The notes beneath the pieces were generated by a model that saw only the letters and a program-made list of their open reading frames with translations, was not told where the DNA came from and ran no database searches. DNA of 64,000 nt from an uncultured Myxococcales bacterium (GTDB lineage Bacteria > Myxococcota_A > Polyangia > Polyangiales > Polyangiaceae): contig CALMUT010000085.1 in NCBI GenBank assembly GCA_937872925.1, positions 1 to 64,000 on the forward strand, read 5' to 3'. The translations under genes and the position numbers were made by a program. Positions 51,851 through 62,738 of the stretch are shown here, one piece after another (position 1 is the first letter of the stretch; each line of letters begins with the position of its first letter).

Positions 51851-53254
51851 TCAGCTTACCGCGCCCTCGGTCAGAGCCACGTCCGGGACGTGCTTTTCCA
51901 GCTGTGCCCGGCTCAGGCGTCGCAGCTCGCGCCGCGGCAACGTGCGCAGCAAGTCCCAGCCCATGCGGAGGCTCTCTTCCAGACTGCGTGGACCGTCTTG
52001 ATGCAGGAGTTTGCGCTCGAACGCGTCACCGAACTCCAAATAGACTCGGTCGGACGCCGGCAGGCCCTCGGTACCCACGACACTCGCGAGCGTTCGCACC
52101 TCGTTAGCGCGCGCGTAGGATGCATACAGCTGCTGCGCCAACCCGGGGTGGTCCGGATGCGTCTTGCCTTGACCGATCCCGTCTTTCATCAGTCGCGACA
52201 GACTGGGCAGCACACGCACTGGTGGATAGGTTTCTTGCCGATCCAAGTTCTTGTCGAGCACGATCTGCCCTTCGGTGATGTACCCAGTCAGGTCAGCGAT
52301 GGGATGACTGATGTCCGACGCGGGCATCGTCAGAGCGACCAACTGCGTCAGGCTTCCTGGCAGGCCTTCCACGACTCCAGCGCGTTCGTAAAGGATTGCG
52401 AGATCGGAGTACATGTATCCGGGGTAGCCCTTGCGACTCGGGATCTCTCCATGGCTGGCCGAAACTTCTCGCAAAGCCTCGCAGTAATTCGTCATGTCGG
52501 TCATCAAGACCAACACATGGCGGCCTTCTTCGAATGCCAGGTACTCTGCAGCCGTCAGGGCGAAGCGTGGCGTTAGCAGGCGCTGAGTGCTCGACTCGCT
52601 CGCCAGGTTGAGGAACAACGCGGTATGTTCCGCGGCGCCGCTCACCTGCATCGCGCGTCGGAACGCTTCCGCGGTATCGAAGGAGACTCCGATCCCGACG
52701 AACACCAGTGCGAAGTCCCCTTCGGCGTCGCCCAACAGGCGCGCGCGTTGGGCGATTTCAGTCATCATGCGATCGTGGGGTAAACCGGCCGCCGAGAAAA
52801 TGGGTAGCTTCTGACCGCGCACCAAGCTGTTCAGCAAGTCGATGCAGGTGAACCCCGTCTCGATAAACTCGAAGGGTTTGATGCGGCGAGCCGGGTTGAT
52901 GGGCAACCCTTCGATGCGAAAGGATCGCTCGACTACGACCGGCGGCCCGGCGTCGATGGGCTGCCCTACTCCGTTGAAGACACGCCCCAAGAGCCCCGGT
53001 CCGACGCCAAAGTGCAGGGAGCTGCCGTGTAGGCGTACTCGGGTCTCCGGCAGACTCAGGCCCGTCGTCGACTCCAGCACTTCGATCACCATGACATCAT
53101 CGTCCAGTGTGGCCACTCGACCTAGACGGCTACGTCCGTCACTTCCAAACACCTCCACGGACTCGTTGAGTCCCACCGCTACGTTCCGCTTCAGAAACAG
53201 CAGCGGCCCCTCGATGCGGGTGGCAGCTCCGCTGACGGAAACCTCAGCTCGCAC
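51851..53254 (-). CDS. atpB: V/A-type ATPase subunit B
   Basis: 467 residues from the GTG at 53254, which lies inside the end of atpA. The non-catalytic nucleotide-binding partner of subunit A. Typical segments: RIEGPLLFLKRNVAVG near the start, GRVFNGVGQPID, FIETGFTCIDLLNSLVRGQKLPIFS (no full P-loop, as expected for B), VFVGIGVSFDTAEAF, MTDMTNYCEALREVS, and LTMPASDISHPIADLTGYITEGQIVLD. Full length, no frameshift. Confidence 0.95.
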   Translation of the reverse strand: MRAEVSVSGAATRIEGPLLFLKRNVAVGLNESVEVFGSDGRSRLGRVATLDDDVMVIEVLESTTGLSLPETRVRLHGSSLHFGVGPGLLGRVFNGVGQPIDAGPPVVVERSFRIEGLPINPARRIKPFEFIETGFTCIDLLNSLVRGQKLPIFSAAGLPHDRMMTEIAQRARLLGDAEGDFALVFVGIGVSFDTAEAFRRAMQVSGAAEHTALFLNLASESSTQRLLTPRFALTAAEYLAFEEGRHVLVLMTDMTNYCEALREVSASHGEIPSRKGYPGYMYSDLAILYERAGVVEGLPGSLTQLVALTMPASDISHPIADLTGYITEGQIVLDKNLDRQETYPPVRVLPSLSRLMKDGIGQGKTHPDHPGLAQQLYASYARANEVRTLASVVGTEGLPASDRVYLEFGDAFERKLLHQDGPRSLEESLRMGWDLLRTLPRRELRRLSRAQLEKHVPDVALTEGAVS

Positions 53255-54992
53255 GTGCCACCTCGTTTCCCAGCCGGGCAAACGCTTCGTCCAATTCACG
53301 CCCCAGCGCCTCCAAGCCGTCGAGGTCCTCACCGAGCTCTTCACTCATGCGCTGGAGCTTCGCCAGCACTTCCAGCTCCGCCACGGCGGAAAGCGCCACG
53401 CCAGCGTCCAAAGCCTCCGCCGCCAGTTCACTGAATCGCACGATGAGCCGCAGCATCACCGCTTGGCGCTTGGGACTGCAATGCGCGTCAACTGGAGAGA
53501 GTGCCGACTGGCGTAGGAATCCGTCGTTGATCAGATCGGCAGCCAACAGCACGAGTTGTTGGCGTTCTGGCAGTGCGTCTTTGCCGATGATCCGTGCCAT
53601 GCGCACGAGCCGCGCCTGCTCCTCTAGAAGTGCAAGCAGTCGTCTGCGGTCCTCGGTCCAACGCCCACTGCCCTCCGCCTCCCACCAGTCGCGAAGCGAC
53701 CCAACGTCTTCGGAGTAGGAGGCCAAAGGATGGATCGCGGGATACATGCGCGCGTGGGCCCGTTCCGGGTCGAGGCTCCACATGCACCGCACGTAGCGCT
53801 CGGTGTGCTTGGTGACGGGTTCGGAGAAGTCTCCACCGGGTGGACTGACTGCACCGATGAGCGTCAGAGAACCTTCCAGTCCGTCGAGGGTTTCGACGCG
53901 GCCGGCACGCTCATAAAACTCCGCCAGGCGGCTGCTCAAGTACGCTGGGTAGCCGCCTTCCGCAGGCAGCTCTCCAAGGCGGCCGGAGATCTCCCGCAAG
54001 GCTTCTGCCCAACGACTGGTCGAGTCGGCCATCAACGCAACGTGCAGGCCTTGATCACGGAAGTACTCCGCGACCGTCACTCCAGTATTGATGCTGGCCT
54101 CGCGCGCCGCCACGGGCATATTGGATGTGTTGGCGATGATCACCGTACGCTCGAGCAAGCGCCGACCTGTCCGAGGGTCATCGAGCTCCGGCAGTTCCTG
54201 CAGGACTTCGGCCATCTCGTTGCCGCGCTCGCCGCAGCCCACATACACGACCACGTCGGCGTTGCACCATTTCGCCAGCGTTTGCTGCAACACGGTCTTG
54301 CCGGTGCCGAAGCCCCCGGGCAGTGCTGCACGCCCGCCGCGCGCAACCGGAAACAGGGTGTCCAGAATGCGTTGGCCGGTCAAAAGCGGTCTGTCCGGCG
54401 GGAGTCTGCGTCGCACCGGGCGCGGCATGCGCACCGGCCAGCGCTGCGTCAGTCCAACCTCGTGCTGCACGCCGTCCCGCGTCTCGATGCGACACAGCAC
54501 GCTGCCTGCATCCGCCTCGCCCGCGACGCGCATTTCGCGGACGGTTCCGGATACCCCGGGCGGCAGCAGCACACTTTGTTCGCGCGCTCCAGCCCGGCGA
54601 ACGCTTCCGAGACGTGCGCCACCTACCAAGCTGTCCGACACGCTGGAAAGCGGCGTGAACGAAACCTGAAGGTCGATGGCGGTCCGCATGCCGGGTTGCA
54701 CGCGCGCCTGCGTCGTGACCAACGGGCGCAGCAGCCCATCGAAGATCCGACCCAACAAATGCGGCCCAAGAGTTGCCGACAGCGGCGCTCCCGTGCCCTC
54801 CACACTGGCGCCCGGCCGCAGCCCTGTGGTGTCCTCATACACCTGCACCACGATATGGTCCTGATGGATCTGAATGACTTCGCCCAGCAACTTGCGGTCG
54901 CCAACCAGCACGGCTTCGTAGACCTGAAACGGATCGACCGTCCGCCCGCGTAGCACCGGCCCGCTGATCCACTGCAACACGGCGCGATTCAC
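53244..54992 (-). CDS. atpA: V/A-type ATPase catalytic subunit A
   Basis: 582 residues from the GTG at 54992. ATP hydrolysis/synthesis site: P-loop GGFGTGKTVLQQ, catalytic Glu in VGCGERGNEM, ADSTSRWAEALREIS and SPPGGDFSEPVT. The N-terminal barrel (WISGPVLRG) and the A-specific insertion domain are present, with the MRVAGEADAGSV region. Full length for the V/A type, and about 80 residues longer than F-type beta. The GTG overlaps atpE's stop by four bases. Confidence 0.95.
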   Translation of the reverse strand: MNRAVLQWISGPVLRGRTVDPFQVYEAVLVGDRKLLGEVIQIHQDHIVVQVYEDTTGLRPGASVEGTGAPLSATLGPHLLGRIFDGLLRPLVTTQARVQPGMRTAIDLQVSFTPLSSVSDSLVGGARLGSVRRAGAREQSVLLPPGVSGTVREMRVAGEADAGSVLCRIETRDGVQHEVGLTQRWPVRMPRPVRRRLPPDRPLLTGQRILDTLFPVARGGRAALPGGFGTGKTVLQQTLAKWCNADVVVYVGCGERGNEMAEVLQELPELDDPRTGRRLLERTVIIANTSNMPVAAREASINTGVTVAEYFRDQGLHVALMADSTSRWAEALREISGRLGELPAEGGYPAYLSSRLAEFYERAGRVETLDGLEGSLTLIGAVSPPGGDFSEPVTKHTERYVRCMWSLDPERAHARMYPAIHPLASYSEDVGSLRDWWEAEGSGRWTEDRRRLLALLEEQARLVRMARIIGKDALPERQQLVLLAADLINDGFLRQSALSPVDAHCSPKRQAVMLRLIVRFSELAAEALDAGVALSAVAELEVLAKLQRMSEELGEDLDGLEALGRELDEAFARLGNEVARAS

Positions 54993-55630
54993 GGCGCGAC
55001 TCCTCCGGCGCCTGCGCGCCGCCGTAGCTCGAGCAACAACCGACCCTGAACGGACGTCTTCATCGCAAGCAAACCCGTCACGCTGCCGTCGACTAACGCG
55101 CCGCTGGCGGAAACCCGCAGCCCGGCGACCAGGGCCTCGCTGCAGACCAGCCGCGGCGGCGCACCGCTCGCTCGCGCAGTTTCGGCGGCGATCTCTTTCA
55201 GCTCTTCGGGCCCCAGCTGTGGATGTTCTACCAGCCATTGGCCCTTGGGAAGCACCCTGGCCGCATCTTCGATCAAGCGACGGACCCACTGCTTGCGCTG
55301 CTCGGGGCTCTCCCAGCGCCGCGCAAGCTCGCTTGCAATCGATTCCCATGCTCTCGAGAGCAACGTGCGCGCAATCTCATGGGAAGTGGCTCGCTCCTCC
55401 GCCGCGAGCTCCGCTCGGACGTGGTGGACACGCTGCTGCATGGAAGCGCGTGCCTCAGCGGCAGCCCGAGCGACGTGGACCCTTGCCTCACGGCGCGCTG
55501 CCTTTCTCAGCTCCGCCGCGCTCCGTTGCGCATCGCTGTGCAATTGTGCGCAGCGCACCTGGCAGTCGCGCTCCACGAGGTCGAGGAAGCGCGGCACGGA
55601 ATCTCGGTCGCCGTCCGCACGCCCACTCAT
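54989..55630 (-). CDS. atpE: V/A-type ATPase subunit E (peripheral stalk)
   Basis: 213 residues. Long N-terminal helix rich in Ala/Arg/Glu (RCAQLHSDAQRSAAELRKAA, ARASMQQRVHHVRAELAAEE), which pairs with the G-type subunit, then a globular C-terminal domain (VEHPQLGPEELKEIA, GLRVSASGALVDGSVTGLL). This matches the E subunit layout of the peripheral stalk. Overlaps atpF by four bases and atpA by four. Confidence 0.85.
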   Translation of the reverse strand: MSGRADGDRDSVPRFLDLVERDCQVRCAQLHSDAQRSAAELRKAARREARVHVARAAAEARASMQQRVHHVRAELAAEERATSHEIARTLLSRAWESIASELARRWESPEQRKQWVRRLIEDAARVLPKGQWLVEHPQLGPEELKEIAAETARASGAPPRLVCSEALVAGLRVSASGALVDGSVTGLLAMKTSVQGRLLLELRRRAGAGGVAP

Positions 55631-55929
55631 GACACCATGCCCAACTGCCGCTGGACGGCGGCGCCCAGATCCGGAGCCGCGGCCTCTGAAGCCATCGAGT
55701 CGACGACCAAGACACTGCAGTTCAGCGTACGCTGCGTCTGTGCTTGCGCGCCCCGCGGCAGGTGCTTCGCGAGCTCAGCAGTGATCAGCACCAGCCGGGA
55801 CTCCCGGCAAGCTTCTTGAAACACCGCCGGCAGTTGCGCCAGAGAGGGAGACAGCACGCGAGCGCCGGCCAAACGATAGCCACTGCCCGTCAAAGCGTCA
55901 CCGATGAAGATGGGAGGTTCTTGGGTCAT
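55627..55929 (-). CDS. atpF: V/A-type ATPase subunit F
   Basis: 100 residues from the ATG at 55929. The F subunit sits on the rotor. Typical features: IFIGDALTGSGYRLAG near the start, LVLITAELAKHLP in the middle, and a C-terminal amphipathic helix. The length is right for the family (~100). Overlaps atpE and atpK by four bases each. Confidence 0.85.
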   Translation of the reverse strand: MTQEPPIFIGDALTGSGYRLAGARVLSPSLAQLPAVFQEACRESRLVLITAELAKHLPRGAQAQTQRTLNCSVLVVDSMASEAAAPDLGAAVQRQLGMVS

Positions 55930-56273
55930 CCGAGCTTGTTGAGGATCAGAATCGAAACGATCAAGCCATAGATGGCGATGCCCTCGGCCAGACCCACCAG
56001 CACCAACACGCGCCCGAAGAGCTCGGGCTTTTCCGCGAGGGCGCCGACGCTTGCGCTTCCGACGCGCGCAACCGCCAGCGCCGCGGCCACCGATGAAATG
56101 CTCGTGGCCGCCGCGGCCGCGACGTAGCCCCAGCGCAACACAGAGGGGTCGTTGACGAGGGTGGCGGGTGCTGCGTCCGCGGCCAGGGCCGGCGTTCCCC
56201 ATAGGAGCACGGTGCAGACAATGCTCAGTACGGAAACGACGGCGAGCCAGAACCAAGCAGAAGAACGCATCAT
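55926..56273 (-). CDS. atpK: V/A-type ATPase proteolipid subunit K (single hairpin)
   Basis: 115 residues. An N-terminal hydrophobic signal-like helix, then one helical hairpin: GYVAAAAATSISSVAAALAV, a loop with GALAEKPELFG, and LVLVGLAEGIAIYGLIVSIL carrying the ion-binding Glu. One hairpin per subunit (c-type, ~8 kDa core) differs from the two-hairpin ~16 kDa K subunits of enterococcal and eukaryotic V-ATPases. No clear Gln/Thr sodium-site signature in the first helix, so H+ use is more likely but not proven. Between atpI and atpF. Confidence 0.85.
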   Translation of the reverse strand: MMRSSAWFWLAVVSVLSIVCTVLLWGTPALAADAAPATLVNDPSVLRWGYVAAAAATSISSVAAALAVARVGSASVGALAEKPELFGRVLVLVGLAEGIAIYGLIVSILILNKLG

Positions 56274-56278
56274 TTTCG

Positions 56279-58123
56279 CTACTCCTTGCCCCCGGGGGCG
56301 GGGGCCGGTGGTGTCAGTGCCGGTGGTGTTAGGGGTTGGAAGGCACGCCCTTCCCCACGCAAGAACCGTGCGAAGAACTCGAAGAGCACGAGGCGGGTCG
56401 TCTGAATCGAGACCACCAAGCCTTCCAGCGCGACGGTAAAGGCATTGCCGACCACCAGCACGAGCGTTGCGGCAAGGGCTCCGCCCGCGGCATGGGACAG
56501 TCCCTCGATAGCGGAGCACAAACCTGCGTGCGCCAACGCGAAGGCACCGACCCGCGCGAAGGACACCGTGTTTACGAGCAGCTGGAGCACCCGCTCGATC
56601 AGATGCCCGGCTGCTGCAGCAGCGCTCTTCAAGCGGTGCTTTGGTGCGGCGACCCCGCTGCCAACCAGATGCCAGGCGACGCCGAAAATTGCTACGAATC
56701 CGGCGCGCCCATCCACCGCCATGCCCACCACGCCCAGGTAAATCACGAGGACCGCCGCGTCGACGCTCAGCCAGCGAGACAGCCCGCCCCGCCAGCGCGC
56801 TTCGAAGGCGCTGAGCAGCAGACCCACGAGCAAGATCGCCGAGCCGCCCACGACCGAAACGGCCAGAAGTGGAAGCGGCGCGGAAAGCGGGTGCACCCAG
56901 AGCGGCGCGATCACCCTTTCAGAGGCAAACACGCTGCCAAACAGCACCCCAAACACGATGGCCATCGCACCGCCGGAAATCAAAAGGGCCGTTGCGGGAA
57001 AGCGCTTGCGCAGTATCAGGCCGAGCAATACCAGCACGGCGCCCTGACCCACGTCGCCGAACATGAAACCGAATAGCAGCGGTGCCAACACCGCGAGCAC
57101 GGGGCTGGGATCCGGTTCATAGCGCGCTGGAGTGCCAAGCAATCCTGGAAAAGTCTCGAAGGGTTTGACCCACTTCGGGTTGTTCAAGACCACGGGCGGC
57201 TCCCTACTGGGCCCGGGCGAAGGAAAGTCCAGGATCGTGGGAACGCCCACGGCGTCGAGCGCCGCGTCGAGCAGCGCGCCACTCTGATCTTTGGTCCAGC
57301 CGGTGATCACTGCGAAGTGCCGCGTATGAGGCAGCGCCGGTACGCTGTCAGCGAACCAGCGCAGCCGCCGCAAGTCACACAGCGCAGCTGCAAGTTCGTG
57401 GCGCACGTGGCTCGCATGCAATGCTGCCCAAACGCCTTCGAGCAATCCCTCGATGGCCGTCAGACGTTCCTTCAGTGCTTGCCGCGCGCCACGCGGCGGC
57501 ACCCAGTCAGGGATGGCCACCCTGCGTGCCTTGGCTGACGCAAGTACCTGCTCGACGTCTGCCGCATCACTGCGTTTGCCAACTACGACGAAGAAAGCGT
57601 GTTCTTCCCCCACCCAGCGTCGCACCAACGGCCGGGCCGGCAGCGCGGCATCCATCGCGGCCGTCCGCGACATGACGAACAGATGCGCGCTCAGGGTCGG
57701 CCCCGCATCACGCAGTTGTGCGAGGTCCAAGTCCTCCGCACCCGGCACGTCGCACAGCTCGGCGAGGAGTTCGAGTTCCGCACGTTCCTGCTCTAGCTGC
57801 TGCAACGCTTCTATTTGCGGTGCAGCGTCGGCGCTCCAGGCCGCGACGCTTGCCAACGCGCGTTTCGCCACCGCGGCTGGAGCTGCAGGCGGCCCGCTCG
57901 ACGGCACTTCCTGTTCGGGCCAGTACGGATGAAAGCGCCGCGCAAGCTGCTCGTACTCGCGCAGCGCCTCCTGGACGTCGCTACCCCGTGCATAGGCCCC
58001 GAGTTCGGTCTCCGCTTCGATCTGCACCATACCCGTGCGCGCAAGCGCTTCCGTAACTCGACTCACGTCGTTGCGATCCGTGAGCACTTGAAACCAACGC
58101 GCGGGGACTGGTCTCAGACCCAT
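56279..58123 (-). CDS. atpI: V/A-type ATPase subunit I (a)
   Basis: 614 residues: N-terminal ~300 residues cytoplasmic (peripheral-stalk binding), then seven to eight membrane helices. The stator half-channel shows VLAPLLFGFMFGDVGQGAVL, the Arg-bearing helix VNTVSFARVGAFALAHAGL and the final EGLVVSIQTTRLVLFEFFARFL. These conserved Arg and Glu positions form the ion path against subunit K. Overlaps the C gene (stop/start) by 10 bases and ends five bases before atpK. Confidence 0.9.
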   Translation of the reverse strand: MGLRPVPARWFQVLTDRNDVSRVTEALARTGMVQIEAETELGAYARGSDVQEALREYEQLARRFHPYWPEQEVPSSGPPAAPAAVAKRALASVAAWSADAAPQIEALQQLEQERAELELLAELCDVPGAEDLDLAQLRDAGPTLSAHLFVMSRTAAMDAALPARPLVRRWVGEEHAFFVVVGKRSDAADVEQVLASAKARRVAIPDWVPPRGARQALKERLTAIEGLLEGVWAALHASHVRHELAAALCDLRRLRWFADSVPALPHTRHFAVITGWTKDQSGALLDAALDAVGVPTILDFPSPGPSREPPVVLNNPKWVKPFETFPGLLGTPARYEPDPSPVLAVLAPLLFGFMFGDVGQGAVLVLLGLILRKRFPATALLISGGAMAIVFGVLFGSVFASERVIAPLWVHPLSAPLPLLAVSVVGGSAILLVGLLLSAFEARWRGGLSRWLSVDAAVLVIYLGVVGMAVDGRAGFVAIFGVAWHLVGSGVAAPKHRLKSAAAAAGHLIERVLQLLVNTVSFARVGAFALAHAGLCSAIEGLSHAAGGALAATLVLVVGNAFTVALEGLVVSIQTTRLVLFEFFARFLRGEGRAFQPLTPPALTPPAPAPGGKE

Positions 58124-58737
58124 GCGACCTCGCTTTGCACGTCAGCGAATAGCAGCCGCCGCAGGAGCGCACCGCGCAGCCGCTCCAAGTCGAAAAACGC
58201 CAGCGCCAAGTAGCAGAAAGCCGCCACCGGCTGCTCGGCCTGCGCACGAAAGCGACGCGCGGTGTCACGTTCGAGAGCAGCGCGCAGCCGCCAGCCATCT
58301 TCGCTCGGCGGCGCGGCCGCCATGCGCAGCCGGTGCCGCAATATTTCCTCGATGAAAGCGTCGACTTCCGCGCGTTCGCGGGCTCGCATCGACGGCAAAA
58401 CGGCCCGCAATTCCTCCAGGGCGCCAAGGCGAAACTCCGCTGGCTCCGTCCAGCGCGCAAGCAGCTCGAATACCGGAGTCCACACGGCGGGATACCAAGT
58501 GGCAACTTCCAAAACGTGGACCGCGAACGCGCGACGCAACGCGGAGTCGACGGCGTCCGCGTCGGAGTCGCCATGAATGGCCGACAACCATGGGCGCAGT
58601 TCGCTGGCGCGCGCCGCCTCAAGGAAGTGCGCCCAAGAGCCACTGGCGTGAAGCCGCCGCCAAGTGCGTTCCTGCGGCCGCGCGCCCAGGCGCGCCTGGA
58701 CGCGTGTCTGGCCATAGGCAAAGTCTACGCGGCTCAC
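58114..58737 (-). CDS. atpC: V/A-type ATPase subunit C-like (short)
   Basis: 207 residues from a GTG that overlaps the G gene by four bases. It has the helical, charged pattern of subunit C/AC39 (VDFAYGQTRVQARLG at the start, SWAHFLEAA, WLSAIH, AFCYLALAFFDLERLRGALL at the end) and its position between G and I fits. It is about two thirds the length of usual C subunits (~320-340), so one of the family's repeated domains may be missing. C joins the rotor to the membrane ring. Assignment rests partly on operon position. Confidence 0.6.
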   Translation of the reverse strand: MSRVDFAYGQTRVQARLGARPQERTWRRLHASGSWAHFLEAARASELRPWLSAIHGDSDADAVDSALRRAFAVHVLEVATWYPAVWTPVFELLARWTEPAEFRLGALEELRAVLPSMRARERAEVDAFIEEILRHRLRMAAAPPSEDGWRLRAALERDTARRFRAQAEQPVAAFCYLALAFFDLERLRGALLRRLLFADVQSEVAWV

Positions 58738-59102
58738 GTGCCCTCCTGCGTGTCGGCGTTGCCCAGCAGCCAATCCACGACGTCACCGACCGCCGCACCG
58801 AGTAGTGCTTCGTCGGCGAGACTGCGCTGCGAGGCACGCTGCCGATCCGCGAACTCTTCCCGAAGCACGGCAATCTGTTCTTCCGCGAGCGAAAGGCCGC
58901 GCTCGTGAACGCGACGGGCGCGCGCATCCGCCCGCTTCGCGATCCGCCGCGCGTCCGCACGCGCGGCGGCGACGACGCCCTCGGCCATCCGGGACGCTTC
59001 GGCCACTTGCTGCTCCGCGTCGCGTTCGGCTTCGAGTACCGCGTCAATGCTGGGGCTCCCCCCCGGCTGGGCCATGATCCCCACGGATGCAGCAACCTCC
59101 AT
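58734..59102 (-). CDS. V/A-type ATPase G/H-type peripheral-stalk subunit
   Basis: Up to 122 residues; the ATG at 59075 (nine codons in) or the GTG at 59084, which follows a GGAGG, may be the true start. One long Ala/Arg/Glu helix (VLEAERDAEQQVAEASRMAE, ARADARRIAKRADARARRV), typical of the coiled-coil G/H subunit that pairs with E. First gene of the operon. The C-terminal end overlaps the GTG of the C gene. Confidence 0.75.
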   Translation of the reverse strand: MEVAASVGIMAQPGGSPSIDAVLEAERDAEQQVAEASRMAEGVVAAARADARRIAKRADARARRVHERGLSLAEEQIAVLREEFADRQRASQRSLADEALLGAAVGDVVDWLLGNADTQEGT

Positions 59103-59535: not shown

Positions 59536-60660
59536 ATGTCGAAGCAATACCTTGAGCTAGTTAAAGAGCTCACCCAAAATGTAGTCCGTGAACACGCGGT
59601 CGCCGTGGACAAGACCGGCGAATTCCCCAAAGCATCTATAGACGCCTTTCTAGCATCGCCACTGGCAGGCTTGCTCAACGGCACGGCAGTCGGCGGCATG
59701 GGTCTCGGCCTGCGACAGGCGACGAAGGTGGTGGAGCAGATCGCTCAATACTGCGGCTCGACAGCGATGATCGTGACGATGCACTACGCAGGCGCCACGG
59801 TGATCGAAAAACTCGGTACAGAGAACGCACGCAGAGACATCGCCACCGGCAAGCATCTGAGCACGCTGGCCTTCTCAGAGCGCGGCTCGCGCAGCCATTT
59901 CTGGGTGTCCAATTGCACGGCGGAGAAACACCCCAAGGGCATCAAGCTCAACGGCGAAAAAGGCTGGGTCACCTCCTCGGGTCACGCAACGGCATTTGTG
60001 TGGTCGAGCAAACCCGTCGATGGCGACGAACTCTCCACCCTGTGGTTGGTGCCGCGAGAGAGCGCCGGCCTGCTCCCCTCCACAGAAGCGTTCGATGGCA
60101 TCGGCCTGCGCGGCAACGATTCGCGTCCTGTCACGGCCAAGGACGTGATCATTCCCGATGACAACCGGCTCGGCGAGCATGGCGACGGCTTCAAGATCAT
60201 GCTCGAGGTGGTGTTGCCCAGCTTCAATGCGCTGATCGCATCGGTAGCGGTGGGCATCATGGAAGCGGCAACCACAGCCACGGCGGCCCACGCTGCCGGA
60301 ACCAAGCTGGAGCACCTGAGCTCACCGCTCTGCGAGCTGCCGACCATACGTGCCTACATCGCCCGCATGCGCTGCAAAACCGACATGGCTCGCGCGCTGC
60401 TCCTGGACACGGTCAGCGCGCTGGAGGTTGGACGTGAAGACGCTGTACTGCGCGTGCTGCAAAGCAAGGCCGTGTGTGGAGAAGCCGCAACCGAAGTCAC
60501 CGATCTGGCCATGCGCGTTTGCGGCGGCGCTGCGTTCCGCAAGGACGTCGGCGTCGATCGGCATTTCCGGGACGCGCGCGCGGGCACGGTCATGGCGCCG
60601 ACAACGGATCAGCTCTACGACTTCATCGGCAAGGCCGCTTGCGGCATGGACGTATTCTAA
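59536..60660 (+). CDS. Acyl-CoA-dehydrogenase-fold flavoprotein lacking the catalytic Glu
   Basis: 374 residues with the three-part ACAD fold: an N-terminal helical domain, a middle beta domain (LSTLAFSERGS, GEKGWVTSSGHA, LRGNDSRPV) and a C-terminal helical domain. The end reads FRDARAGTVMAPTTD: aligned on RDA(K/R), Ala stands where true dehydrogenases have the catalytic Glu of YEGT. This places it with the flavin-dependent monooxygenase-like (class D, DszC/HpaB-related) or other non-dehydrogenase branch. Its real substrate is unknown. First gene of a three-gene cluster; 17 bases separate it from the next. Confidence 0.8.
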   Translation: MSKQYLELVKELTQNVVREHAVAVDKTGEFPKASIDAFLASPLAGLLNGTAVGGMGLGLRQATKVVEQIAQYCGSTAMIVTMHYAGATVIEKLGTENARRDIATGKHLSTLAFSERGSRSHFWVSNCTAEKHPKGIKLNGEKGWVTSSGHATAFVWSSKPVDGDELSTLWLVPRESAGLLPSTEAFDGIGLRGNDSRPVTAKDVIIPDDNRLGEHGDGFKIMLEVVLPSFNALIASVAVGIMEAATTATAAHAAGTKLEHLSSPLCELPTIRAYIARMRCKTDMARALLLDTVSALEVGREDAVLRVLQSKAVCGEAATEVTDLAMRVCGGAAFRKDVGVDRHFRDARAGTVMAPTTDQLYDFIGKAACGMDVF

Positions 60661-60677
60661 TCGGAGGCGTGACCAGG

Positions 60678-61529
60678 ATGACCAGCAAGACACTGATCTT
60701 GGGCGCCGTCGCCTACGACCCGAAGGTCGTCACCATTTGGGACGGGTTCAAAGCGTACTTCGCGGAGCGTGGTCTCGACTTCGACTACGTGCTGTATTCC
60801 AACTACGAGCGCCAAGTGCGCGGGCACTTCGAAGCGCAGTACCAAGTGGCCTGGAACTCGCCACTGGCCTGGCTGCAGGCCGAGCGCGTGGCACGGGAGC
60901 GGGGCCGGGTGGCGCGCGCCGTCGCCATGCGCGACACCGACCAAGACCTGACCAGCGTCGTCATCGTCAAAACCGACGGAGGCATCAACGCCATCGAAGA
61001 CCTGAAGGGAAAGACCGTGGGCGTCGGCGCGGCAGATTCCCCGCAGGCCACGCTGATCCCACTGCTGCACTTGGCGGAGGCAGGGCTGGAACCCGGCCGC
61101 GACTTCGAAGTCAAGCGCTTCGACAAGCTGCTCGGCAAGCACGGCGATCACATTGGAGGCGAACGCGACGCGGCAAAGGCGCTGTTCGCCGGCGAAGTGG
61201 ATGCGTGCTGCATGATCGACGGCAATCACCTGCTTTTCACCCGGGAAGGCACGCTGCCGGCGAACGGCACCCGGGTGCTGGCGCAGACGGCGAAGTACGA
61301 TCACTGCAACTTCACGGTCCTGGACGACGCGCCGACGGATTTGATCGAGCAGTTCGTGACGCTGCTGCTGGCCATGTCCTACGACGACGCGGAGGTGCGA
61401 CCACTGCTCGACCTCGAAGGCCTCAAGCAGTGGAAGCCCGGTCGCGTCCTTGGCTACGCGTCTTTGGAGCGTGCGGTGGCGCGTTTCGACACGCTGGCGC
61501 CGTTCCTTGCGGAGCTGGGCATCCGCTAG
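60678..61529 (+). CDS. Substrate-binding-protein-fold protein without a signal peptide
   Basis: 283 residues from the ATG at 60678, with GGAGG upstream. It shows the periplasmic-binding-protein type II pattern of the phosphonate/sulfonate/nitrate class (LILGAVAYDPKVVTIWDGF, YVLYSNYERQVRGHFEAQ, LKGKTVGVGAADSPQAT, LFAGEVDACCMIDGNH). There is no signal peptide or lipobox, so the protein stays in the cytoplasm and cannot be a normal ABC binding protein; no permease or ATPase gene is near. Cytoplasmic proteins of this fold can be enzymes or ligand carriers (for example Thi5- or MqnA-like), but no specific motif links it to those. Lies between the ACAD-like and TusA-ferritin genes. Confidence 0.75.
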   Translation: MTSKTLILGAVAYDPKVVTIWDGFKAYFAERGLDFDYVLYSNYERQVRGHFEAQYQVAWNSPLAWLQAERVARERGRVARAVAMRDTDQDLTSVVIVKTDGGINAIEDLKGKTVGVGAADSPQATLIPLLHLAEAGLEPGRDFEVKRFDKLLGKHGDHIGGERDAAKALFAGEVDACCMIDGNHLLFTREGTLPANGTRVLAQTAKYDHCNFTVLDDAPTDLIEQFVTLLLAMSYDDAEVRPLLDLEGLKQWKPGRVLGYASLERAVARFDTLAPFLAELGIR

Positions 61530-61535
61530 CGGCTC

Positions 61536-62738
61536 ATGCTCAAGCTAGATCTGGACGATCTGAGCTTTGCCGAGGGAGGCCACGTGCTCTTGCGGCACGC
61601 GCTGCGTAGCGTCGATGTGGGACAGGTCGTGGCAGTACACGGCGCTGCTCCTGCCCTGTCTGTGCATGTCGCGGCGTGGTGCCGCGGCGAAGGGCACAGC
61701 CTGGTAACGGCCGACGGCGAGTCCGCAGCCGAAAAAGACGCCGTCGTGACGATACGACGTGGATCCGCGGAAAGCGCGCGCTGGAGTGACGCCGAACGCG
61801 CGGGCACCCCTTCCCTGGACGGGGTCGTCGAACGCCCCAAAGCGAGCTGGGGTCTCGCCGCGCGTGGCGCCAGCGTGGAACGTGGCGGCGCAGCGTTCGA
61901 CTTTCGCCTGAACGAAAAGCGCGTGCTGTGGGCCGACGATGCCGCGCGTCTGTACCAACAGGCTGTCGCCGCGCAATGGGATCCACAAAGCGCCATCGAC
62001 TGGAACGCGCCCTGCGACCTGCCCGCGGAAGTGGAAGACGCCGTGGTGCAGGTCATGACGTACCTGATCGAAAACGAAACTGCCGCGTTGCTGGTGCCGG
62101 CGCGGTTCCTTTCGCAGCTGCATCCGCACTTCCGCGAGGTCATGCAGCTGCTAGCGGTGCAAACCGCCGACGAAGCCCGGCACATCGAGGTCTTCACGCG
62201 ACGCGCGCTGCTCAAGCGTGACCTGCTCGGGCTCTCCACCGTCGGCGGGCAGGCGTCCCTGAAGACCTTGGTCGACGAGCCTGATTTTGCGCTGTCTTCC
62301 CTGTTACTGAGCGTGCTGGGCGAGGGCAGCTTCTTGAGTCTGCTCTGGTTCTTGAACACGCACGGGCCAGATCCGATCACGCGGCAGATCGCACAGTTGG
62401 CGGCCCAGGACGAAGCGCGCCACGTTGCATTCGGCATGGCGCACCTCGAGCACCAGCTCGCTGCAGACCCGTCGCTGCTAGAACGCATGCGCAGCGCGAT
62501 CCAACGCCGCCACGACGCGCTTTCGTCAACAGCTGGCCTCAACGATCTCGTCTATGACGCACTGATCGTGTTGGCGGCCGGCGCGTGGACTCCTGCCGCC
62601 ATTCGCACCGGCTTCCAGCGCGTTGCCGACTTAGTCCAAGACATGCATTCCGGGCGCACCCGCCGCTTGCTGCGCCTGGGGTTTTCGGACGCCGAGGCGG
62701 ACGAGCTGTCCGCGCTCCACACCAAGAACTTCATGTAG
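61536..62738 (+). CDS. TusA-like domain fused to diiron ferritin-like domain
   Basis: 400 residues starting six bases after the previous stop. Residues ~1-75 resemble the small TusA/SirA fold (LDLDDLSFAEGGHVLLRHALRSVDVGQVVAVHG), but the CPxP active-site motif is missing, so sulfur transfer by that Cys is not expected. After a ~60-residue linker comes a ferritin-like domain (about 135-390) with a full two-iron ligand set: Glu179/181, E213-x-x-H216 (DEARHIEVF), Glu263 and E293-x-x-H296 (DEARHVAFG). This resembles the R2/AurF-type oxygenase or oxidase family. With the flavoprotein upstream it suggests an O2-dependent oxidation pathway. Confidence 0.8.
   Translation: MLKLDLDDLSFAEGGHVLLRHALRSVDVGQVVAVHGAAPALSVHVAAWCRGEGHSLVTADGESAAEKDAVVTIRRGSAESARWSDAERAGTPSLDGVVERPKASWGLAARGASVERGGAAFDFRLNEKRVLWADDAARLYQQAVAAQWDPQSAIDWNAPCDLPAEVEDAVVQVMTYLIENETAALLVPARFLSQLHPHFREVMQLLAVQTADEARHIEVFTRRALLKRDLLGLSTVGGQASLKTLVDEPDFALSSLLLSVLGEGSFLSLLWFLNTHGPDPITRQIAQLAAQDEARHVAFGMAHLEHQLAADPSLLERMRSAIQRRHDALSSTAGLNDLVYDALIVLAAGAWTPAAIRTGFQRVADLVQDMHSGRTRRLLRLGFSDAEADELSALHTKNFM

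Follow-up and report, generated by a model that had tools for sequence, protein, structure and literature searches.

A three-gene cluster encoding a Glu-less acyl-CoA dehydrogenase-like flavoprotein, a cytoplasmic binding-fold protein and a TusA-like/diiron fusion, with a genomic link to selenium metabolism

The window analysed here is a stretch of 64,000 nucleotides from contig CALMUT010000085.1 of an uncultured Myxococcales bacterium (assembly GCA_937872925.1). Between positions 59536 and 62738 it possesses three genes on the + strand (open reading frames of 374, 283 and 400 amino acids) that are separated by gaps of 17 and 6 bases, as stated in the original prediction made from the sequence alone (adjacent same-strand genes, 6-17 base gaps). 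These genes, designated here as the trio, encode an acyl-CoA dehydrogenase (ACAD)-fold flavoprotein, a binding-fold protein and a fusion of a TusA-like domain with a diiron domain. The trio is probably an undescribed route by which aerobic bacteria obtain or handle selenium. Its features are the following.

59536..60660, + strand: gene 1, ACAD-fold flavoprotein without the catalytic Glu, 374 amino acids (Pfam, NCBIfam, alignment)
60595..60597, + strand: codon for Ala354, which aligns with the catalytic Glu of ACADs (alignment; never Glu in 97 homologues)
60678..61529, + strand: gene 2, cytoplasmic PhnD/PtxB-type binding-fold protein without signal peptide, 283 amino acids (Pfam, NCBIfam, Foldseek)
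61536..62738, + strand: gene 3, TusA-like domain fused to a diiron domain of the AurF/R2/ADO type (ADO, aldehyde-deformylating oxygenase), 400 amino acids
61536..61805, + strand: TusA-like N-terminal domain of gene 3 without CPxP, residues 1-90, resembling the N-terminus of Rv1681-type radical S-adenosylmethionine (SAM) proteins
61839..62735, + strand: diiron domain of gene 3, residues 102-400, with ligand candidates and the LHTxNFM tail (alignment, structural model)

Gene 1 matches the N-terminal, middle and C-terminal Acyl-CoA_dh domains of Pfam, each above the gathering score, and thus has the three-domain ACAD fold. In true acyl-CoA dehydrogenases the catalytic Glu is provided by the C-terminal loop or by helix G; gene 1 has it in neither place. 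In the alignment with solved structures, the Glu of short-chain ACADs ('yEGT') falls on Ala354 ('mAPT'), and this column contains Ala in 80, Gly in 16, Val in one and Glu in none of the 97 homologues. The helix-G position, which we take to be the catalytic site of the isovaleryl-CoA dehydrogenase type and to lie at Phe230 of gene 1, is Phe in 96/97 homologues. These two columns rule out a true dehydrogenase with a displaced Glu, so that the Ala originally read at the catalytic position stands. The best NCBIfam match is NF049984 (Rv1679/FadE16) with 376 bits, under the cut-off of 600, which makes gene 1 a distant relative of this family and not a member. SfnB and DszC, ACAD-fold monooxygenases of sulfur acquisition, likewise lack the dehydrogenase Glu. 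Gene 1 shares their fold and scores 83 bits with the SfnB model and 43 bits with the DszC model, but these values are far under the cut-offs (431 and 850, respectively), and the partner genes differ.

Gene 2 belongs to the Phosphonate-bd family of Pfam (E 2.8e-31). In its predicted model (mean pLDDT 97.2) the first strand of the fold starts from residue 6, without any hydrophobic leader, and the aligned homologues have no signal peptide or leader either. The sequence start, the homologue alignment and the model therefore rule out an overlooked signal peptide. The original prediction had also stated that transporter genes are absent; this holds for the window, where no ATP-binding cassette (ABC) transporter genes are found beside gene 2, but not for two relatives, in which an ABC transporter is encoded close to the trio or to its selD. 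Hence neither mark of an ABC-transporter substrate-binding protein, i.e., a signal peptide or lipobox and cognate ABC genes, accompanies gene 2 in the window. By the curated NCBIfam cut-off (400), gene 2 is a relative and not a member of NF049985 (Rv1680, substrate-binding protein-like), with which it scores 230 bits. The next match, TIGR04553 (putative selenate transporter substrate-binding protein), reaches 57.5 bits; proteins of this family have a homologous fold, but are exported and have ABC partners, whereas gene 2 is cytoplasmic.

The best structural matches of gene 2 in Foldseek are binders of phosphite, methylphosphonate, arsenite or arsenate, namely PtxB, PhnD, AioX and ArrX (E about 1e-21 to 1e-15, TM about 0.7). 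These proteins are periplasmic, have 14-21% identity to gene 2, and are set apart from the cytoplasmic gene 2 set by the GKHGD, MRDxD and WNSPLA motifs of the latter. An arsenic link could be suspected from the AioX-like fold, but no gene family supporting it recurs at the trio loci. Furthermore, the invariant motifs of gene 2 (GAVAYD, MRDxD, DSPQA, GKHGD) are conserved unusually strongly for a binding protein. Because these loops are so conserved, we considered an enzyme of the MqnA/MqnD or Thi5 type, which have the periplasmic-binding-protein fold as well; we consider this less likely, as the Pfam NMT1 match is weak and Thi5 ranks 50th in Foldseek.

TusA is known to carry sulfur and, in some bacteria, selenium as well. 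The N-terminus of gene 3 is matched by Pfam TusA (PF01206) in 14/17 homologues at E <= 0.01 (best 7.7e-7), and this sequence profile assigns the TusA fold to the family; note that the window protein itself scores 20.2 bits, under the gathering score of 28.6. The motif corresponding to CPxP contains no Cys, so the mark of a TusA sulfurtransferase is lacking, and the sole frequent Cys of the domain, C49, is replaced by Ala in 37/97 homologues. The second part of the protein carries the candidate diiron ligands E179/E181, E213xxH216, E263 and E293xxH296, which were judged on sequence and are conserved in nearly all of the 97 homologues. Its predicted model (mean pLDDT 94.8) is similar to VlmB (VIA-align Z 22.4 over 258 residues), ADO (Z 21.9) and R2lox (Z 21.2). 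The N-oxygenases AurF/VlmB, R2lox and ADO share the diiron four-helix fold with gene 3 at 13-21% identity, but gene 3 differs from all of them in its N-terminal TusA-like domain and in the C-terminal LHTxNFM tail, which is invariant among the homologues. Although the Pfam AurF score (20.7 bits) is under the cut-off of 29.6, the two Glu and two ExxH motifs in a predicted four-helix bundle identify gene 3 as an AurF/R2-like protein. The TusA-like domain without CPxP and the complete diiron motif had been recognised in the original prediction, and both are borne out by the homologues.

The trio was proposed to be one functional unit, and the gene neighbourhoods of its relatives support this. A scan of 84,980 species revealed 464 relatives of gene 2, and the best 80 loci were examined for the trio. 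Genes at the related loci (L-numbers) were called with a simple home-made caller and checked with tblastn; many of the G-labelled genomes are incomplete. The whole trio is present in 74/80 loci, nearly always in the same order, which is far beyond chance and rules out an accidental neighbourhood. Of the six remaining loci, three are cut off by a contig edge; gene 3 is absent from L118, and gene 1 from L132 and L154. Where the caller recognised all three genes, they are on the same strand in 78/80 loci and are separated by median gaps of 11 and -4 bases. In L160 the order is gene 3, gene 1, gene 2; the cluster has therefore survived rearrangement. According to the record titles, the trio occurs in Myxococcota, Planctomycetota, Acidobacteriota, Actinomycetota, Nitrosomonas, Variovorax, Peristeroidobacter, Eremiobacterota, Rokubacteria and Binatia, i.e., in at least eight bacterial groups. 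Within Myxococcota, 49/377 genomes possess the gene 2 family at E below 1e-30; most of the loci examined there have the whole trio and a few have gene 2 alone, and G011 and G373 have genes 1 and 2 only. Mirror-tree correlations (0.65, 0.41 and 0.45) each exceed all 999 permutations, the last two narrowly, which is consistent with co-inheritance but not decisive. Clustering of all neighbours revealed no further gene family recurring beside the trio, so a larger conserved cluster is ruled out. Five LysR genes did cluster; only the copy in L043 is located directly before the trio and has a selenium-type score, whereas the others are located farther away, some of them beside peroxiredoxin genes.

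Stand-alone copies of gene 2 can be found in Myxococcota (L109-L112, L045-L048, L076-L078), nearly all of them in genomes with SelD; in L109-L112 a metallophosphoesterase-like gene adjoins the copy. In L097 (4687-6647, - strand), the gene 2 homologue is directly followed by a short gene of the MetE-like methionine synthase family in place of the diiron gene.

The closest relative of the trio is the Rv1679 (FadE16)-Rv1680-Rv1681 (MoeX) gene set of the Mycobacterium tuberculosis type (NF049984, NF049985 and NF049973). Its ACAD and binding protein are homologous to those of the trio and are encoded in the same order, and its ACAD, which reads RDARAG.VMAPT.D, lacks the Glu like gene 1. The third protein, however, is a radical-SAM enzyme in this set and a diiron enzyme in the window. 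The actinobacterial genomes G458 and G476 possess this arrangement, in which a radical-SAM protein with a similar N-terminal segment comes after the same ACAD and binding protein (L210:5112-8951 and L211:6697-10542; NF049973 with 507 bits for the protein of L210). In these loci a DoxX-like gene precedes the ACAD gene, as in Rv1678-Rv1681; the DoxX likeness comes from reading, and NCBIfam gave no match. The N-termini of the diiron and radical-SAM types align in hhalign with 83% probability (E 8.6e-6, with only two sequences on one side), and NCBIfam reveals a faint match of the window gene 3 N-terminus to that of the Rv1681 radical-SAM protein. With a shared N-terminus and a different main domain, the third component thus has a diiron and a radical-SAM form. 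For Rv1679, Rv1680 and Rv1681, only biomarker and annotation papers were found in the searchable literature. The homologous set is already catalogued; the diiron form and the selenium link appear to be new.

Genome G404, which carries a diiron trio elsewhere, encodes a fusion of a metallophosphoesterase with an Rv1681-like radical-SAM domain (L193:1354-3090, - strand, 269 bits), with the gene for a PhnD-type lipoprotein directly downstream (L193:418-1332, - strand).

In several lineages the trio is linked to genes of selenium metabolism (sel), which were first read by eye and then confirmed by NCBIfam. In Variovorax boronicumulans (L190, L235, L236), formate dehydrogenase genes, fdhE, selA, the trio and selB follow each other on one strand. 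The formate dehydrogenase large subunit is split there over two frames, as would be expected of an in-frame selenocysteine (Sec) codon. The same 28 kb contain selD, mnmH/selU and a TIGR04553 putative selenate transporter protein beside selD (363 bits). In Peristeroidobacter soli (L182) selD and selA adjoin the trio, and in an Eremiobacterota genome (L163) selD does so. Short SelB-like stretches (N- and C-terminal pieces, L182:4292-4705) between selA and the trio of P. soli are perhaps a selB remnant. The trio of Labedaea rhizosphaerae (L178) is directly followed by the gene of a TIGR04553 protein (361 bits, cut-off 250) and by PhnC/PhnE-type genes. A LysR gene 67 bases upstream of the trio in G050 (L043) has as its best match the selenium-metabolism LysR NF040786 (237.6 bits, cut-off 250). 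About 15 kb from its trio, the actinobacterium G531 carries selD, selA and selB together with a split formate dehydrogenase. The window genome itself possesses SelA and selenophosphate synthetase (SelD), the latter with an in-frame TGA in GGG(TGA)ARK at the usual active-site Cys/Sec position (contig C59, L218); its SelD is therefore probably a selenoprotein.

Furthermore, the trio co-occurs with SelD beyond chance, with phylogeny partly controlled. SelD (TIGR00476) is encoded in 244/377 Myxococcota genomes, i.e., in 48/49 of those with the gene 2 family versus 196/328 of those without it (Fisher p 2.8e-9 by genome, 6e-5 by genus and 0.009 within the family of the window). Outside Myxococcota, 36/37 trio genomes possess SelD, for which the probability is about 3e-6 if a background of 65% is assumed for those phyla; the exception is a 3.4 Mb metagenome-assembled genome (MAG) of Rokubacteria, which has SelA. 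The downstream uses of selenium vary in these 37 genomes, with SelA in 27 and the selenouridine synthase SelU in 15. Eight Nitrosomonadaceae trio genomes lack SelA, and 7/8 of them possess selenouridine synthase. The trio thus tracks SelD and not one downstream use of selenium, and its occurrence in genomes that make selenocysteine as well as in those that make selenouridine suggests that it acts upstream of SelD.

The original prediction had tentatively proposed the use of a sulfur, nitrogen or phosphonate compound and missed the selenium link. We found nothing for nitrogen or phosphonate and nothing direct for sulfur; the gene context and the co-occurrence point to selenium instead. An oxidative pathway for an ordinary S, N or P compound, with the selenium genes nearby by accident, would suit the resemblance of the families to SfnB/DszC and PhnD, as well as the radical-SAM homologues that stand beside a DoxX-like gene in SelD-negative genomes. 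We nevertheless consider it improbable, as the selA-trio-selB operon, the sel-type neighbourhoods elsewhere and the SelD statistics are hard to credit to accident, and recurrent genes for sulfur, nitrogen or phosphonate use are absent from the locus.

SelD being the common factor, the simplest reading is a supply of selenium to SelD. To our judgement, the chances are about even that the trio is a self-contained, oxygen-using selenium operon acting upstream of SelD. A selenium compound (for instance selenite or an organoselenium acid, methylated or not) would be bound in the cytoplasm by the PtxB/AioX-like gene 2 protein, and the SfnB/DszC-like Glu-less ACAD flavoprotein and the TusA-diiron oxygenase would then oxidise and split it, both acting on the one substrate held by the binding protein. 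The inorganic selenium freed in this way would be passed to SelD for selenocysteine or selenouridine synthesis. An oxygen-dependent route of this kind would suit the make-up of the trio, with an oxyanion-type binding protein in the cytoplasm, an ACAD-fold protein from a group that includes flavin monooxygenases acting on sulfur compounds, and a predicted diiron oxygenase with a TusA-related domain. The picture that we prefer is a selenium counterpart of sulfonate/sulfone sulfur acquisition, with methaneseleninate or a similar acid as a possible substrate. The substrate, the order of the steps, the use of O2, the direction (supply versus use of selenophosphate) and a docking role of the TusA-like domain are what we infer from these data. 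A more far-reaching version, which we put forward tentatively and with less confidence, is that the trio represents a pathway devoted to selenium acquisition in aerobes and the first of its kind, a cytoplasmic, O2-dependent system freeing selenium from organoselenium compounds for SelD in eight or more phyla, with a radical-SAM version in actinobacteria.

Several observations weigh against a role of the trio in selenium supply. Shared ancestry is only partly controlled in the Fisher figures, and in Mycobacteriales the association (SelD in 7/7 trio genomes versus 97/143, p 0.07) is non-significant alone. Direct linkage to sel genes is found in only about six of roughly 130 loci. No gene for a flavin mononucleotide (FMN)/flavin reductase that could serve gene 1 was found in the cluster by neighbour clustering across the loci. 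Finally, the two radical-SAM genomes examined (G458, G476) lack SelD, in contrast to the diiron-trio genomes, and so does G373 with its ACAD and binding protein; the ancestral chemistry therefore need not involve selenium.

These SelD-free relatives also make selenophosphate less likely as the substrate. They thereby bear on the alternative that the trio acts downstream of SelD and uses selenophosphate to make or mature a small molecule or cofactor that contains selenium, comparable to SenA/SenB in selenoneine synthesis. Tight co-occurrence with SelD would suit any SelD-dependent pathway, and oxygenases are common in small-molecule tailoring. However, no convincing orphan-SelD genome with the trio was found: among the trio genomes without SelA and SelU, G566 and G580 have a Sec-type SelD, implying a missing SelA, and the G560 MAG is maybe incomplete. 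Nor does a glycosyltransferase or sulfoxide synthase recur in the cluster, and we regard this alternative as rather unlikely.

Selenide is toxic and sensitive to O2, and so are its methylated forms. The trio could accordingly serve selenium homeostasis or detoxification, its enzymes oxidising surplus selenide or methylselenol to a harmless form while the binding protein acts as a buffer, and its occurrence in aerobic lineages with SelD would agree with this. Such a system would not have to follow SelD, but the binding protein is almost absent from SelD-negative genomes; furthermore, neither an exporter nor a metal-type repressor is recurrent at the locus. This function is therefore improbable, and supply of selenium to SelD remains the reading that we prefer.

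No described system with this trio was found in the searchable literature, in line with the original prediction, and searches for a methaneseleninate monooxygenase and for selenium-assimilation operons gave nothing on point; subscription papers were mostly outside the scope of these searches. The genes surveyed for selenium metabolism include YedE, YedF, LysR_Se and DUF3343 (PMC5322559), YqeB/YqeC-type genes and an NADH oxidoreductase (PMC2432076) and, as neighbours of orphan SelD, isochorismatase-like, ABC ATPase and cysteine desulfurase-like genes (PMC5029168). YedE, YedF, DUF3343 and LysR_Se (PMC5322559) were identified, as here, through their gene context and their co-occurrence with sel genes, and a LysR close to NF040786 precedes one trio, but none of the four belongs to the trio. 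A 2026 review states that a specific high-affinity system for selenium transport is yet to be identified in prokaryotes (PMC13188914). In the available portions of these three surveys and of the review, the trio families are not named. For the supply of selenium to SelD in aerobic bacteria, the trio offers a directly testable candidate. At the same time, the uncharacterised M. tuberculosis-type gene set is joined to a broader design, in which diiron and radical-SAM domains interchange behind the same TusA-like domain.

The trio is followed in the window, from 63011 onwards on the + strand, by a 3-hydroxyacyl-CoA dehydrogenase-like gene, which is not recurrent at other trio loci. Just upstream of the trio, a V/A-type ATPase-like operon (53244-59102, - strand) comes to its end. 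Both of these neighbours were assigned by reading only.

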